From assembly GCF_947494755.1 (NCBI RefSeq), contig NZ_CANLVZ010000011.1, positions 62,001-126,000 of the forward strand: a stretch of DNA of 64,000 nt. The letters are read 5' to 3'. Positions 48,472 to 54,500 of the stretch are shown here, in pieces; position 1 is the stretch's first letter, and each line of letters starts with the position of its first letter. The translations under genes and the position numbers were made by a program. Under the pieces are notes generated by a model. That model was given only the letters and a program-made list of their open reading frames with translations. It did no database searches and was not told the origin of the DNA. The stretch comes from an uncultured Tateyamaria sp. GTDB lineage: Bacteria > Pseudomonadota > Alphaproteobacteria > Rhodobacterales > Rhodobacteraceae.

Positions 48472-49473
48472 TTAGAAGATCGACTTGAACTGATCGATGT
48501 TGGAGGCGTCGTAGATGAACGGATCGGCCATCGCCGCCTCGTTGTTGTCGTCCAGCGTGATGGTGCCGACGCGCCCGATGGAAATCTCTGCACCCGGCTC
48601 GGCCGTTGCGGTCTCGGACGCAAGCGCGTGGGCGATCATCGTCGCAGAGTACCCCAGATCAATCGGGTTCCAGATCGCGAAAGACTTGGACGCACCGCTT
48701 TCGATGGCACCTGCCATTTCGGATGGCAGCCCAAGGCCGGTCACGTTGACCTCACCGATCTTGCCTGCATCCGCAACGGCCTGGGCTGCGGCCACGATGC
48801 CAACAGAGGTCGGCGCGATGATCGCATCAAGGTCGGGATAGGACTGCATCAGACCCGTTGCCTCGCGGTAGGATTTGTCGGCCAGATCATCGCCGTAGAC
48901 GGTCGAGACGACGTTGATGCCCGGATAGTTGCCCATCACCTTGGTCATCTCTTCGATCCAGATGTTCTGATTGGTCGAAGTGGTGGTGGCCGACAGCACG
49001 GCGACATCACCGCCATCGGGCAGATGATCGGCCGCCAGCTTAATGATCATGTTGCCGATCAGCGCATTGGATGAGGGGTTCAGGTGGACCTGCCGCCCTT
49101 CGGGAGCGACACCGGAATCCCAAGAGATCACCGTGATGCCCCGCTGCATCGCCTTCTTGAGCGTCGGGACCAGCGCGTCAGTGTCATTGGCCGAAACGGC
49201 AATGGCATCAACACCTTGCGCGATCAGCGAGTTGATCACTTCGATCTGACCTTCGGCGGTGGTGTCGGTGGGACCGGTATAGATGATCTCGACGCCACCC
49301 AGTTCGGCGGCCGCTTCTTCGGCCCCTTGTGCGGCGGCCTCAAAGAACCCGATCCCGAGTGCCTTTACAACAAGTGCGATGCGCATATCGTCCTGCGCCA
49401 TGGCAGTGGTGCCAAAGAGGCTGGCAGCAAGGCTGAGCCCTGCGGTGAGTGCGGTGAATGTGCGACGTTTCAT
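48472..49473 (-). CDS. rhaS: Rhamnose ABC transporter substrate-binding protein
   Basis: Periplasmic sugar-binding protein of 333 residues (family of ribose/rhamnose-type SBPs) with a signal peptide MKRRTFTALTAGLSLAASLF ending at an AMAQ site. The mature part shows AVSANDTDALVPTLKKAMQR and TSVGIVAAAQ. GGAGG precedes the ATG. Followed by a hairpin and then rhaT. Confidence 0.92.
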   Translation of the reverse strand: MKRRTFTALTAGLSLAASLFGTTAMAQDDMRIALVVKALGIGFFEAAAQGAEEAAAELGGVEIIYTGPTDTTAEGQIEVINSLIAQGVDAIAVSANDTDALVPTLKKAMQRGITVISWDSGVAPEGRQVHLNPSSNALIGNMIIKLAADHLPDGGDVAVLSATTTSTNQNIWIEEMTKVMGNYPGINVVSTVYGDDLADKSYREATGLMQSYPDLDAIIAPTSVGIVAAAQAVADAGKIGEVNVTGLGLPSEMAGAIESGASKSFAIWNPIDLGYSATMIAHALASETATAEPGAEISIGRVGTITLDDNNEAAMADPFIYDASNIDQFKSIF

Positions 49474-49511: not shown

Positions 49512-50312
49512 CTAAGAGGCCATGTTCTTCTGAGCGCCCCCTGTCTGGGTGACGATCAGGGTCACTTCTGCGGCGTCGAGCATGGCGGCCGCCTTGTCTG
49601 AAATATGATCATCGGTGATGACCGTCGTGATGCGGTTCAGCGGGCACAGCACAAGGCTCGAGCGCTGTTCGAACTTGCTGCTGTCAGCGAGGACGACCAG
49701 CTCATCGGCCTGACCGATCAGTTTCTGTTCCGCCTGGATCAAAAGGGGGTCCGCCTCCATCAGGCCCAGAGGCCCGAGGCCCTGCGCGCCCATGAACATG
49801 CGCCGCGCACAGAAATTGCGGGTCACGTCATTGTCGAAAGGCGACAGGATGATATTCTGTTCGCGGTAGATGGTGCCGCCCGACAGCATCACGGTGTTCT
49901 TGGAATGCTTGAGCAGATGTTCGGCAATGGGAAACGAGTTCGTAAAGACCTGCATCCGGCGACCAGCCAGCGGATGCACCATCTGAAACGTGGTGGTGCC
50001 GCCATTGATGATGATCGCATCACCATCGTCGCACAGGTCCACCGCCGCTGCGGCGATCGCCTGCTTCTCTTCGATCCGCATGGTTTCGTTGACAGAGAAG
50101 GGGCGCCCGGCAAGGCCGACAAATTGCGGCGGGTTCAATGCTTCTGCCCCACCACGCACGCGACGCAGCTGCTTGTCCTGATCGAGCGTTGCGATGTCAC
50201 GACGGATAGTGGCCTCGGACGCGCCGGTCAGGCTGCACAGGTCTGCGACCGTGACAACGGGGCGTTCTTCCACCGCTGACAGAATGATCGTGTGCCGTTC
50301 TTTCTCATGCAT
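49512..50312 (-). CDS. rhaR: DeoR-family rhamnose regulator
   Basis: DeoR-type regulator of 266 residues. The N-terminal helix-turn-helix (TVADLCSLTGASEATIRRDI) is followed by LRRVRGGAE, then a sugar-phosphate-sensing domain ending in the segment ADSSKFEQRSS. In rhizobia this protein represses the rha operons. It is first in the minus-strand operon, next to the operator array at 50356-50428. Confidence 0.92.
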   Translation of the reverse strand: MHEKERHTIILSAVEERPVVTVADLCSLTGASEATIRRDIATLDQDKQLRRVRGGAEALNPPQFVGLAGRPFSVNETMRIEEKQAIAAAAVDLCDDGDAIIINGGTTTFQMVHPLAGRRMQVFTNSFPIAEHLLKHSKNTVMLSGGTIYREQNIILSPFDNDVTRNFCARRMFMGAQGLGPLGLMEADPLLIQAEQKLIGQADELVVLADSSKFEQRSSLVLCPLNRITTVITDDHISDKAAAMLDAAEVTLIVTQTGGAQKNMAS

Positions 50313-50355
50313 ATTCGTCTCCCGTGGCTTTTACGGTGTGCAGATTCGGAGCATC

Positions 50356-50428
50356 TGTCAATCAGAAACAATCATAAGCAATCATTCTGCGGCGCAGCAT
50401 GATTGAAATTGATTGATTGTGATTGACA
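50356..50428. promoter_or_regulatory. Dyad-symmetric operator array between rhaR and rhaD
   Basis: Three CAATCA copies start at 50359, 50369 and 50379, exactly 10 bp apart. Three TGATTG copies start at 50400, 50410 and 50420, also 10 bp apart. Both sets are symmetric about position 50392, where CTGCG-G-CGCAG forms an inner palindrome. The outer copies extend to TGTCAATCA and TGATTGACA. TTGACA at 50423-50428 (plus strand) and its mirror at 50361-50356 could serve as divergent -35 boxes. A single extra TGATTG overlaps at 50414. Probable RhaR operator. Confidence 0.75.
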
Positions 50429-50497
50429 AAGGCCAGTGCGACGCTCAGCTTCGGAGCAACGCAGATGATAGGCGCATCGCGCTGACCGGGAGGAAAC

Positions 50498-52600
50498 ATG
50501 TTGAAATCATTGGAAACCCAGCTTCTCGAAAGCCGTTGGGACGACGCGGTCACCAAGGGCATGAGCGAATCGGATCTTTTGCTCTATCGCTCGAACATCC
50601 TCGGCTCGGACAAGCGCGTGACGAATTACGGCGGCGGGAACACATCGGCCAAGGTGATGGAAACGGACCCTTTGACCGGACAAGAGGTCGAGGTGCTTTG
50701 GGTCAAAGGGTCGGGCGGCGATATCGGGTCCATGAAAATGGACGGCTTTGCAACGCTTTACATGGACAAGTTGCAGGCGCTGAAGGGGCTCTATCGCGGC
50801 GTCGAGTTCGAAGACGAGATGGTTGGGTACCTGCCGCACTGTACGTTCCGGCTCAACCCCCGTGCGGCGTCAATCGACACGCCGCTGCATGCCTATGTGC
50901 CGCGCAAGCACGTTGATCACGTCCATGCTGATGCAATCATTGCGATTGCCGCGTCCAAGAATTCCAAAGAACTGACCCGGGAGATCTTCGGAAGCCGGAT
51001 CGGCTGGCTGCCGTGGAAGAAGCCCGGTTATGAACTGGGGCTCTGGCTCGAGAAATTCTGCGTTGAGAACCCCGACGCCGACGGTGTGGTCCTCGAAAGC
51101 CATGGCCTGTTCACATGGGGTGACACCGCAAAGGAATGTTATGACCAGACCATTGATGTGATCAATGTCGCCACCAAGTGGCTGGCCGAGCGAAGCGATG
51201 GTGTGCCGGCCTTTGGCGGCGCGGTCCATGACAGTCTGGCCCCCGCTGCGCGGCGCGAAATTGCGGCCCGCCTGATGCCCGCGATCCGTGGTTTTGTGTC
51301 GGGCAATCAGCATATGGTCGGCCATTTCAACGACAGTGACACAGTGCTTCAGTTCGTAAATGCCAAGAACATGGCCCCACTCGCCGCGTTGGGCACGTCT
51401 TGTCCCGATCACTTCCTGCGCACCAAAATTCGCCCGCTCGTCGTGCCTTTCGATCCGGCAACCGGAAACATCGATCAGGTCCTGAACGGTCTGCCAGAGC
51501 AGGTAGAGGCCTATCGCGAGGACTATGCGGCCTATTACGCACGTTGCAAACATGACGACAGCCCCGCGCTGCGCGACCCGAATGCGGTGGTCTATCTGGT
51601 GCCCGGTGTCGGCATGATCACCTTTGCCAAAGACAAGGCGACGGCGCGCATCTCGGGCGAGTTCTATGTCAACGCGATCAACGTGATGCGCGGCGCATCT
51701 GCCGTCAGTGAATATCAGGGCCTGCCCGAGCAAGAGGCGTTTGACATTGAATACTGGCTGCTTGAAGAGGCGAAGCTGCAGCGCATGCCCAAGCCCAAAT
51801 CGCTTGCGGGTCGTGTGGCCCTGGTCACCGGCGGAGCAGGCGGAATCGGCGCGGCAACGGCCGAACGCTATCTCAAGGAAGGCGCATGCGTTGTTCTGGC
51901 CGACATCAACGAAGAGGCGCTGGCCTCCACACAACAGAACCTGTCGGGTCGCTTCAGCGAGGATGTGGTCCGCAGCGTCGTGATGAATGTAACCCGCGAA
52001 GACGCGGTCGCGGCGGCCTTTGCAGACGCGTGTGTCGCATTCGGGGGGATCGACATTCTGGTGTCGAACGCAGGTATCGCATCGTCGGCCCCCATCGAAG
52101 ACACGTCGCTGGCGCTGTGGAACAAGAACATGGACATCCTCTCCACCGGCTATTTTCTGGTCAGCCGCGAAGCGTTCAAGCTGATGCGGGTGCAGAACAC
52201 GGGCGGGGCGGTCGTGTTCGTGGCCTCCAAGAACGGATTGGCAGCCTCGCCGAATGCCGCCGCCTATTGCACCGCCAAGGCGGCCGAAATCCATCTGGCC
52301 CGTTGTCTGGCCCTTGAAGGGGCGGAGGCCGGAATCCGCGTCAATGTAGTGAACCCAGATGCGGTCCTGCGCGGCTCGAAGATCTGGGAAGGCGACTGGC
52401 TGGAACAGCGCGCTGGCACCTACGGCACCGACAAGGACGGGCTGGAGGAGATGTATCGCCAGCGCTCCATGCTCAAGCGGTCTGTGCTGCCGGAGGACAT
52501 CGCCGAGGCGTGTTATTTCTTTGCCGCCGACACCTCGTCGAAATCCACGGGCAACATCATCAACGTGGACGCAGGCAACGTCCAGGCGTTCACACGGTAG
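50498..52600 (+). CDS. rhaD: Bifunctional rhamnulose-1-phosphate aldolase / short-chain dehydrogenase
   Basis: Fusion of 700 residues. The N-terminal class II aldolase part (about 1-430) has YGGGNTSAKV, and HVHADAIIAIA as metal-binding region. The C-terminal SDR part has a glycine-rich loop LVTGGAGGIGAAT near 442, NAGIASSAP, and the catalytic pair in AAYCTAKAAE. The aldolase splits rhamnulose 1-phosphate to DHAP and L-lactaldehyde, and the dehydrogenase part is thought to process lactaldehyde. GGGAGG precedes the ATG. The same fusion occurs in rhizobia. Confidence 0.94.
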   Translation: MLKSLETQLLESRWDDAVTKGMSESDLLLYRSNILGSDKRVTNYGGGNTSAKVMETDPLTGQEVEVLWVKGSGGDIGSMKMDGFATLYMDKLQALKGLYRGVEFEDEMVGYLPHCTFRLNPRAASIDTPLHAYVPRKHVDHVHADAIIAIAASKNSKELTREIFGSRIGWLPWKKPGYELGLWLEKFCVENPDADGVVLESHGLFTWGDTAKECYDQTIDVINVATKWLAERSDGVPAFGGAVHDSLAPAARREIAARLMPAIRGFVSGNQHMVGHFNDSDTVLQFVNAKNMAPLAALGTSCPDHFLRTKIRPLVVPFDPATGNIDQVLNGLPEQVEAYREDYAAYYARCKHDDSPALRDPNAVVYLVPGVGMITFAKDKATARISGEFYVNAINVMRGASAVSEYQGLPEQEAFDIEYWLLEEAKLQRMPKPKSLAGRVALVTGGAGGIGAATAERYLKEGACVVLADINEEALASTQQNLSGRFSEDVVRSVVMNVTREDAVAAAFADACVAFGGIDILVSNAGIASSAPIEDTSLALWNKNMDILSTGYFLVSREAFKLMRVQNTGGAVVFVASKNGLAASPNAAAYCTAKAAEIHLARCLALEGAEAGIRVNVVNPDAVLRGSKIWEGDWLEQRAGTYGTDKDGLEEMYRQRSMLKRSVLPEDIAEACYFFAADTSSKSTGNIINVDAGNVQAFTR

Positions 52601-52609
52601 GGGCTGATC

Positions 52610-53848
52610 ATGAGCTATGAGAGCGCGAAAGCCGCCTTTGCCGAATGGGGCGTGGACACCGAAGCTGCGTTGGCGCGGCTGAGGACCATCCCGATTTCGA
52701 TGCATTGCTGGCAAGGGGACGATGTCGTCGGGTTCGAGCAGACCTCAGGCGCATCCGGCGGCGGCATTCAAGCCACCGGCAACCACCCGGGCCGCGCCCG
52801 CACGCCTGATGAGCTGCGCGCTGATCTCGACTTCGCTTATGCGATGATCCCCGGCACGCATCGCCTGAACCTGCACGCCATGTATCTCGACACGGACGCG
52901 ACCCCGGATCGCGACGAAATCGAGTTCGCCCATTTCGCGCCGTGGGTCGATTGGGCCAAGGGGCGGGGCATCGGGCTCGATTTCAACCCGACCTTCTTTG
53001 CCCATGCCAAGGCGGACGACAATCTGACCCTCAGCCACCCGGACGAAGGCATTCGCGACTTCTGGATCGAACATGGCAAGCGGTCCCGCGATATCGCGGC
53101 ACAGATGGGCGCGGCGCTCGGCTCGGCTTGCGTGAACAACATCTGGGTGCCCGATGGCTACAAGGACACGCCGATTGATCGGATGTCGGCGCGTAAGCGC
53201 CTTGACGCATCGCTCGATGCGATGCTCGCACCGCCGCTGGACAAGGCGCAGATGCTGGATGCCGTGGAAAGCAAACTGTTCGGCATCGGGGTCGAGGCCT
53301 GCACCGTGGGCAGTCACGAATTCTACATGGGTTATGCGATCCGCAAGAGCATCCTGTTGTGTCTCGACATGGGCCATTTTCATCCGACAGAAAACATCGC
53401 GGACAAACTCAGCGCGGTGGCGCTGTCACTCGACGACATCCTGCTGCATGTCTCGCGCCCGATGCGATGGGACAGCGATCACGTGATCCTGCTGAGCGAT
53501 GACATCCTGCAAATGGCGCAAGAGCTCGTCAGCGCGGATTTGCTGGCGCGCACCCGCATCGGGCTCGACTTTTTCGATGCGACGATCAGCAGGACAGCCG
53601 CATGGGTAATTGGCACCCGTAACATGCAAAAAGCACTGCTGCGCGCGCTGTTGCTTCCGCTGGATCAACTGCGTGCTGCGGAGACCGCACTTGATTTCAC
53701 CACACGGTTGGCCGTGACCGAAGAGTTCAGGGATATGCCCTTTGGCGCAGTCTGGGCCGAATTCACGGCCCGCGCGGAGGTTCCAAACGGTCAAGGCTTG
53801 CTGAAAGAGCTGGACCGCTATCAATCGGTGGTTTCAGGCCGCGGATAA
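52610..53848 (+). CDS. rhaI: L-rhamnose isomerase (rhizobial type)
   Basis: Isomerase of 412 residues that converts L-rhamnose to L-rhamnulose. Segments include MHCWQGDDVVGFEQ, HRLNLHAMYLD and CLDMGHFHPTENIADK with metal-binding His and Asp. It belongs to the RhaI type found in rhizobia and Bacillus. It begins 9 nt after the rhaD stop, in the same operon. Confidence 0.92.
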   Translation: MSYESAKAAFAEWGVDTEAALARLRTIPISMHCWQGDDVVGFEQTSGASGGGIQATGNHPGRARTPDELRADLDFAYAMIPGTHRLNLHAMYLDTDATPDRDEIEFAHFAPWVDWAKGRGIGLDFNPTFFAHAKADDNLTLSHPDEGIRDFWIEHGKRSRDIAAQMGAALGSACVNNIWVPDGYKDTPIDRMSARKRLDASLDAMLAPPLDKAQMLDAVESKLFGIGVEACTVGSHEFYMGYAIRKSILLCLDMGHFHPTENIADKLSAVALSLDDILLHVSRPMRWDSDHVILLSDDILQMAQELVSADLLARTRIGLDFFDATISRTAAWVIGTRNMQKALLRALLLPLDQLRAAETALDFTTRLAVTEEFRDMPFGAVWAEFTARAEVPNGQGLLKELDRYQSVVSGRG

Positions 53849-54047
53849 TGTGCGCGAGGGGCCGCGACCAAGGGCGGCGTTGCGACACCCATGGCCCATC
53901 AGGCCGAAAGGCGCACCCACGCCCTATTGGATCAAGCCGAGTTGACGAAGGCCACGCCTGCCATCTCGTCGCGTATCTTTCGGCCCATCAGCGATACCCT
54001 TCTTCGCCGTCTTCGTGCAGTTTGGGGCCGCGTGCCGTGATTGGCTC
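53849..54047. other. Gap after rhaI, no gene
   Basis: About 200 bases between rhaI and the ThuA-like remnant. It may be decayed sequence of the same lost sugar locus, but I could not match it to a family. No clear terminator is visible. Confidence 0.35.
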
Positions 54048-54500
54048 CTACGCATCTGCAACATCTTTGTTCGGTGCCGTATGGACGTCTGCAATTCGAG
54101 CCTCCGGGTTGGCGGCCCAGTTCACGGCATTCACCAGTACGTTTTGGATATTGGGGTCATGGTATGTCGGATGGGCGTCGTGGTCGGGCCGGACGTAGAA
54201 CGCATTGCCGCGCGACGACGATAGGTGAGGCCCGAGCGAAAGACGTCACCGCCCTGAAACCAGCTGATGAACAGGGTCTCCAGAGGTTCGGGCACCGCGA
54301 AAGGTTCACCATACATCTCTTCCCGCTCAAACTCGGAATGGTCGGGCAGTCCGCGTGCAATCGGGCGGTGCCGGGAGGTGCCCCAGATCTGCTTGCGCTC
54401 GCCAGCTTCACGCCATGTCAGGTTGCAGGGGGTGCCCATCAACTTTTTGAAAATCGTGGAGAAATGGGCGAAATGCAGCAGGAACAGGACCGGGTTCAAC
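54048..54500 (-). pseudogene. ThuA-like (trehalose utilisation) pseudogene
   Basis: Recognisable ThuA C-terminal half on the minus strand: [46 protein letters not shown] and [14 protein letters not shown] frameshift near 54208-54220 then moves the match ([27 protein letters not shown]) to another frame that ends at TAG 54048. The N-terminal part expected before residue about 100 is missing. Broken and probably inactive. Confidence 0.75.

Follow-up and report, generated by a model that had tools for sequence, protein, structure and literature searches.

Rhamnose is a sugar of plant and algal polysaccharides, and PhaR is a polyhydroxybutyrate (PHB) sensor, a repressor that is titrated onto PHB granules. 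RhaR has been reported as a negative regulator in Rhizobium leguminosarum and Sinorhizobium meliloti (PMC9025865). For DeoR-type RhaR proteins, Rodionova et al. described in 2013 operators of two imperfect direct repeats with a period of 10-11 bp in four taxonomic groups (PMC3870299). The Chloroflexus example contains four tandem TCGAAA sites within 38 bp that were bound in an EMSA; L-rhamnulose abolished this binding (PMC3870299), whereas the first-pass annotation of the DNA described here had named rhamnulose 1-phosphate. In a passage of another source, SorC repressors (SorC family, CggR/DeoR) are described as tetramers on two half-operators (PMC11229326).

The R. sphaeroides PhaR consensus is quoted as 5'-CTGCNNNGCAG-3' in PMC12542648, where the consensus of S. 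meliloti PhaR (AniA) is given as WNWD2NYGCRNYGCRNH2WNW. In the passages of the same source, the rhaD/rhaR fragment of S. meliloti was shifted by PhaR in a gel, a binding graded as weak, and rhaD was listed in the proteome as 'not regulated/not assigned to any module' (PMC12542648).

We analysed a 64,000-nucleotide stretch of an uncultured Tateyamaria sp. genome (hereafter the window), in which rhaR and rhaD are divergently oriented and separated by a gap of 185 bp. The genes concerned are the following:

48472-49473, minus strand: rhaS, rhamnose ABC transporter binding protein, next after rhaR (TIGR02637 over cut-off)
49512-50312, minus strand: rhaR, DeoR-family regulator (Pfam HTH_DeoR and DeoRC)
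50498-52600, plus strand: rhaD, bifunctional rhamnulose-1-phosphate aldolase/dehydrogenase (NCBIfam over cut-off)
52610-53848, plus strand: rhaI (rhaA), L-rhamnose isomerase (NCBIfam over cut-off)

This order, with rhaR divergent from rhaD/rhaI and followed by rhaS, is that of a DeoR-type RhaR operon. A small ORF 3' of rhaI (53848-54198) is a candidate mutarotase by its position; it had no NCBIfam match at E 0.001. RhaR contains both HTH_DeoR and DeoRC, the domain pair of a DeoR-family regulator. No other protein of this genome has a DeoRC match over the Pfam cut-off, which leaves the boxes described below without a competing paralogue of this kind. The C-terminal domain of the RhaR structural model (mean pLDDT 86) resembles the E. 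coli DeoR effector domain PDB 7l6l, with a TM-score of 0.88-0.92 on the target. Sequence searches of the PDB with RhaR returned only the 7l6l effector domain and weak partial matches, with no solved chain over the whole profile.

The rhaR-rhaD gap holds two mirrored triplets of hexamers arranged as follows:

50356-50428, unstranded: whole array, two mirrored box triplets with -35 hexamers at either end (sequence and conservation in relatives)
50359-50364, plus strand: left outer candidate RhaR box CAATCA, overlapping the rhaR -35 (core TCA in 92/93 aligned gaps)
50369-50374, plus strand: left middle box CAATCA, of which relatives keep mainly TCA (88/93)
50379-50384, plus strand: left inner box CAATCA (TCA in 75/93)
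50400-50405, minus strand: right inner box, TGATTG on the plus strand (TGA in 80/93)
50410-50415, minus strand: right middle box, TGATTG on the plus strand (TGA in 91/93)
50420-50425, minus strand: right outer box, TGATTG on the plus strand, overlapping the rhaD -35 (TGA in 78/93)

The first-pass annotation had proposed this layout, and its coordinates were confirmed: CAATCA at 50359, 50369 and 50379 and TGATTG at 50400, 50410 and 50420 are spaced by exactly 10 bp, TTGACA lies on both outer ends (50356-50361 on the minus and 50423-50428 on the plus strand), and 30 of 39 mirrored pairs are complementary about axis 50392, the next best axis in the gap reaching 19. The inner boxes lie 21 bp apart from centre to centre, i.e., two helical turns. 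A seventh TGATTG, at 50414, is out of phase. Direct repeats of a 10-11-bp period upstream of rha genes, as found here, characterize a DeoR-type RhaR operator.

Single CAATCA words are not enriched (42 in the window, against a shuffled mean of 40.5), but only four copies of the exact pair CAATCA-N4-CAATCA exist in the 4.1-Mb genome, and all of them lie in the array. Scored without a preset motif, as three boxes plus their three mirror images, the array reached 36/36; the best place elsewhere in the window with the same geometry scored 27. With other geometries (periods 8-13 and centre gaps 16-30, after a prefilter in which the first two boxes share at least 5 letters), the best place outside the array scored 29 among the listed matches, which comprise 12 of the 15 places scoring at least 28. 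One near-array, G000:C13:125309-125372, has two one-mismatch box pairs inside an ORF that by eye resembles a peptide deformylase gene, and it was attributed to chance.

Based on the sequence and on the family gaps analysed below, we predict one promoter on each side of the array:

50423-50428, plus strand: rhaD promoter -35, TTGACA
50446-50451, plus strand: rhaD promoter -10, CAGCTT, after a 17-bp spacer (A at position 2 in 90/106 gaps, T at position 6 in 95/106)
50356-50361, minus strand: rhaR promoter -35, TTGACA
50333-50338, minus strand: rhaR promoter -10, CACCGT, after a 17-bp spacer (A at position 2 in 76/106 gaps, T at position 6 in 87/106)

Across the 106 family gaps, a CAnnnT-like hexamer lies exactly 17 bp beyond each TTGACA. 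Both -10 elements of the window (50446-50451 and 50333-50338) are CAnnnT without T at the first position, a form that is common in the family. Table 3 of PMC12542648 places the S. meliloti rhaR site 90 from the ATG and 77 from the start, which implies a 13-nt rhaR leader; in S. meliloti Ak57 the predicted -10 ends 7 nt before the start implied by this leader. The geometry of TTGACA, 17-bp spacer and -10, consistent with the S. meliloti leader, would thus place each outer box over a -35 element.

To compare rhaR-rhaD gaps, RhaR was searched in 61 genomes of relatives, of which 18 matched at E<=1e-40, and in 394 family genomes, of which 102 matched at E<=1e-60. The resulting 114 loci were aligned by gene, and rhaD lies beside rhaR in 112 of them. 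We kept 106 gaps, that of the window included, after removing L043, which duplicates L042, the rhaD-less L132 and L133, and five loci with RhaR less than 65% identical; the genomes are related, and the counts below are not independent events. In L042/L043 (G032:C1:347908-348695), the rhaR matches lie in two different frames, covering residues 1-146 and 144-263, which would fit a frameshift; the array is kept. The box array is not conserved in four family loci whose RhaR is about 50% identical.

An exact left anchor, GTCAATCA, is present in 105/106 gaps. The right anchor TGATTGAC was recounted over 30-120 bp, allowing one mismatch (the earlier alignment had sought it at 61-65 bp only): its distance is 63 bp in 92 gaps, 64 bp in eight, 62 bp in four and 53 bp in two. 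An inner box fits the right-anchor word equally well in no fewer than eight of the 63-bp gaps and in one of the 64-bp gaps. Spacing is therefore fixed modulo a helical turn, with 62-64 bp in 104 of the 106. In the two remaining loci, L116 and L127, the exact outer anchors are 53 bp apart, one helical turn short of the rest.

Core counts were taken from 93 gaps aligned at 63 bp, one of which (L127) is misaligned, its exact anchor being at 53. TCA is found at offsets +5, +15 and +25 in 92, 88 and 75 of these, and the mirrored outer, middle and inner TGA in 78, 91 and 80; at no other offset between -20 and 59 does the count exceed 29 of 93 gaps, except at +1, which belongs to the anchor word. All six cores are kept in 48/106 gaps and at least five in 89/106. 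Within the left triplet, conservation is lowest for the inner box; the expected weaker inner box was not found on the right, where the inner core is kept in 80/93 gaps vs 78/93 for the outer one. Among named genome records (the best 80 of 514, overlapping the first set), both anchors are present with at most one mismatch in 79/80, the right one being sought at 61-65 bp, and all six cores in 50/80. In 16/93 gaps the left series has a further TCA, its fourth, one turn beyond the -35 box (offset -5 relative to the left anchor); some of these loci (L089, L099 and L100) have lost the left inner box and have TGCAGGTGCAG at the centre.

Linker symmetry was considered as proof of a joint complex and set aside: within a locus, the letters of linkers and middle boxes show no clear excess of symmetry over comparisons between loci. 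The variable letters of the inner boxes are more symmetric within a locus, a value reached in 12/2000 shuffles, as are the centre arms (0/2000).

A set of 26 DeoR-gene loci was used as a control. Eight of these are RhaR by position, and the best triplet has period 10 in seven of the eight; the wrong start was picked for L258. Among the other 18 DeoR loci the best triplet has period 10 only in L244 (12/18 points), a weak control with the start mis-picked in at least five (L236, L237, L238, L244 and L261). The two rhaR relatives with no rhaD in the stretch, L132 and L133, scored 17/36 for six boxes.

Outside the family, we hand-picked 13 loci from 233 records of a plasmid collection, and rhaD adjoins rhaR in 12. 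Both anchors are present with at most one mismatch at 62-64 bp in 11 of the 12, and the array is found in S. meliloti, R. leguminosarum, R. etli, R. sullae, Shinella and Martelella. On the right side, the inner and outer boxes have inexact TGA cores in the four Rhizobium loci; three cores are missing in Rhodobacter sp. CZR27 and two in Paracoccus sp. MA. In the CZR27 plasmid locus (L347) the left boxes are degenerate and a kinase gene, not rhaS, follows rhaR. The thirteenth locus, where a Sphingobium DeoR gene lies in a different context, lacks the array. The first-pass annotation had named the lack of phased boxes in the homologous gaps of relatives as the contrary outcome; instead, relatives across the family, as well as Rhizobium and Sinorhizobium, retain the phase, the symmetry and the overlap with the -35 elements.

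A class-level search matched 9/385 genomes at 1e-65, the window's own included, leaving eight relatives, in which the boxes fade. In six of the eight loci, outer GTCAA/TTGAC words lie 84-85 bp apart, two helical turns more than in the family, and these loci (L140 and L141; also L139, L142, L143 and L145) contain two or three TGC-RNY-GCA palindromes 21-22 bp apart. Of the remaining two, one has a 71-bp spacing without a palindrome inside and one lacks the right anchor. With anchors that are short words, this spacing pattern is suggestive only.

At the centre of the array lies one further element:

50387-50397, unstranded: central palindrome CTGCGGCGCAG, candidate PhaR site on dyad axis 50392 (PhaR consensus match)

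This segment fits both published PhaR cores, CTGCNNNGCAG and YGCRNYGCR. Within the 106 gaps, TGC-N3-GCA is present in 58 and an N4 form in 17 more; of the 31 gaps with neither, seven are one letter off. All 58 instances read TGC-RNY-GCA, and 57 of them are exactly on the axis, the other (with 64-bp anchors) being within half a base pair. The centre arms co-vary, with 506/828 matches against 452.6 (sd 12.3) in shuffled pairings, and none of 2000 shuffles reached 506. Palindrome and inner boxes can be found apart: both inner cores are kept with no palindrome even one letter off in 10/106 gaps, while the palindrome stands without a left inner core within 1 bp in 14 gaps and without a right one in seven. 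This separability argues for two proteins, with shared ancestry limiting the number of independent cases. In the plasmid-collection loci, TGC-N3-GCA is present at the axis offset in 8/12, the eighth, in Phyllobacterium, having a poor right-anchor fit. Additionally, the PhaR site listed for S. meliloti is the centre of the homologous array, and the published 21-mer matches the array centre of two other S. meliloti records in 20/21 letters (PMC12542648).

The genome has a phaR gene (G000:C5:117265-117579, over cut-off), as do 119 of the 120 genomes searched, the exception being a 71%-complete genome; comparing the presence of PhaR with that of the palindrome was dropped as non-discriminating for this reason. 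Ahead of the genome's own phaR, 46 bp separate the end of CTGCAATGCAG from the start of the HMM match. The last 200 bp before phaR contain TGCN3GCA in 18 of 40 relatives and lack it in 22; all 18 start 49-62 bp ahead of the match, compared with a background density of 0.64 per kb in flanks that are mostly coding. CTGCRNYGCAG occurs at 41 places in the genome, and 38 of the 40 outside the array overlap a mechanical ORF of at least 90 aa; the 11-mer alone is therefore weak evidence, and its genome-wide use as a regulon finder was rejected. The first-pass annotation had placed the array's symmetry on one central palindrome, and its location on axis 50392 stands; as an element, given its consensus match and its separability from the boxes, the palindrome is probably a PhaR site and not a RhaR element.

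Based on these sequence comparisons, we consider it fairly probable that the 73 bp form a double operator for RhaR, with a PhaR site at its centre, shared by the divergent rhaR-rhaS and rhaD-rhaI transcription units. On either side of the axis, three TCA/TGA half-sites spaced by one helical turn would hold RhaR DNA-binding domains, all on the same DNA face; we infer both RhaR binding at each box and cooperativity. With the outermost boxes overlapping the -35 elements, occupied boxes would keep both promoters closed until RhaR is released by a rhamnose intermediate, and the conserved phase, symmetry and -35 overlap fit such phased binding covering both promoters. The central CTGC-RNY-GCAG would be a PhaR site rather than a RhaR box. 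The 21-bp PhaR motif (50382-50402) would overlap the two innermost boxes at their TCA/TGA cores, from which a competition between PhaR and the inner RhaR pair is predicted. PHB status would then modulate rha repression, through a competition and with a sign of the PhaR effect that we likewise infer.

The palindrome could instead belong to RhaR itself, with the nearest mirrored pair nucleating an inverted-repeat dimer, the outer boxes extending it and PhaR having no role. Its position on the dyad axis, arms more conserved than most linker letters, and a PhaR binding in S. meliloti that was weak and without proteome effect (PMC12542648) would all agree with such a core. We nevertheless judge it unlikely: 10/106 gaps keep both inner cores without the palindrome and in 21 the palindrome is there with one inner core missing, the RNY core and the CTGC/GCAG arms fit the PhaR consensus and not the TCA/TGA boxes, and similar palindromes precede phaR in 18/40 relatives. 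Still less probable, to the point of being a marginal explanation, is that the 10-bp rhythm mainly reflects phased A/T linkers that bend the DNA or serve as UP elements, with RhaR on the outer boxes only. The box-adjacent linker positions are indeed mostly A/T and lie upstream of both -35 elements, but the TCA/TGA cores of the middle boxes are far above the linker letters in conservation, and those of the inner boxes above most of them.

A further alternative concerns the unity of the array, which might be two separate three-box operators, mirrored only since the promoters diverge, without a complex that joins them across the axis. In favour of this, each triplet is tied to the -35 of its own promoter, the variable linker and middle-box letters show no clear co-variation between the halves, and spacings of 62 and 64 bp are tolerated in 12/106 gaps. 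Against these points, the outer anchors are at 63 bp in 92/106, and the largest departures, 53 bp in the family (one turn less) and 84-85 bp in 6/8 class-level loci (two turns more), are by whole turns, as if the halves were phase-locked. Two independent operators thus appear rather improbable to us, and we retain the shared double operator as the preferred reading.

An extension of the double operator is offered tentatively, at somewhat under even chances: the 73-bp cassette may be a two-input gate in Rhodobacterales and Rhizobiales, in which PhaR on the axis competes with the innermost RhaR half-sites and the carbon-storage state sets the tightness of rhamnose-catabolism shutdown at both promoters, distant cassettes having grown by two turns and holding two or three PhaR-type palindromes. 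The conserved layout in many marine and soil bacteria suggests one switch that would read both sugar supply and carbon stores. An array so strictly spaced in many genomes is a good substrate for learning how DeoR-family repressors read 10-bp direct repeats, and if PhaR does act at its centre, a directly testable link would connect polyhydroxybutyrate storage with rhamnose use.

Compared with known systems, the array shares with the RhaR operators of PMC3870299 a DeoR-family rhamnose repressor and 10-11-bp direct repeats; those are tandem repeats, whereas here mirrored triplets lie between two promoters. The main-text passages of PMC3870299 do not have Rhodobacterales among the named groups and mention no second-regulator site at the centre. 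The rhaR-rhaD locus of S. meliloti and Rhizobium has the same divergent genes and the same 63-bp array as the window (PMC9025865, PMC12542648), and the passages of these two papers mention neither RhaR boxes nor an overlap with the PhaR site. The candidate PhaR site is inside the array of another regulator and not at a phasin promoter; it lies about 66 bp upstream of both predicted starts, which are expected near 50458 on the plus and 50326 on the minus strand. The likeness of 7l6l to RhaR concerns the effector domain only. The first-pass annotation knew of no DeoR operator with exactly this layout; neither the mirrored 3+3 layout nor a PhaR site in the middle of it came up in the open-licence literature searched, and to that extent the statement holds, but tandem 10-11-bp repeats were already published in 2013 (PMC3870299). 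What is known, then, is the 10-11-bp tandem repeat of DeoR-type RhaR, and what appears new, by the open-licence literature, is the mirrored 3+3 array around a candidate PhaR site.
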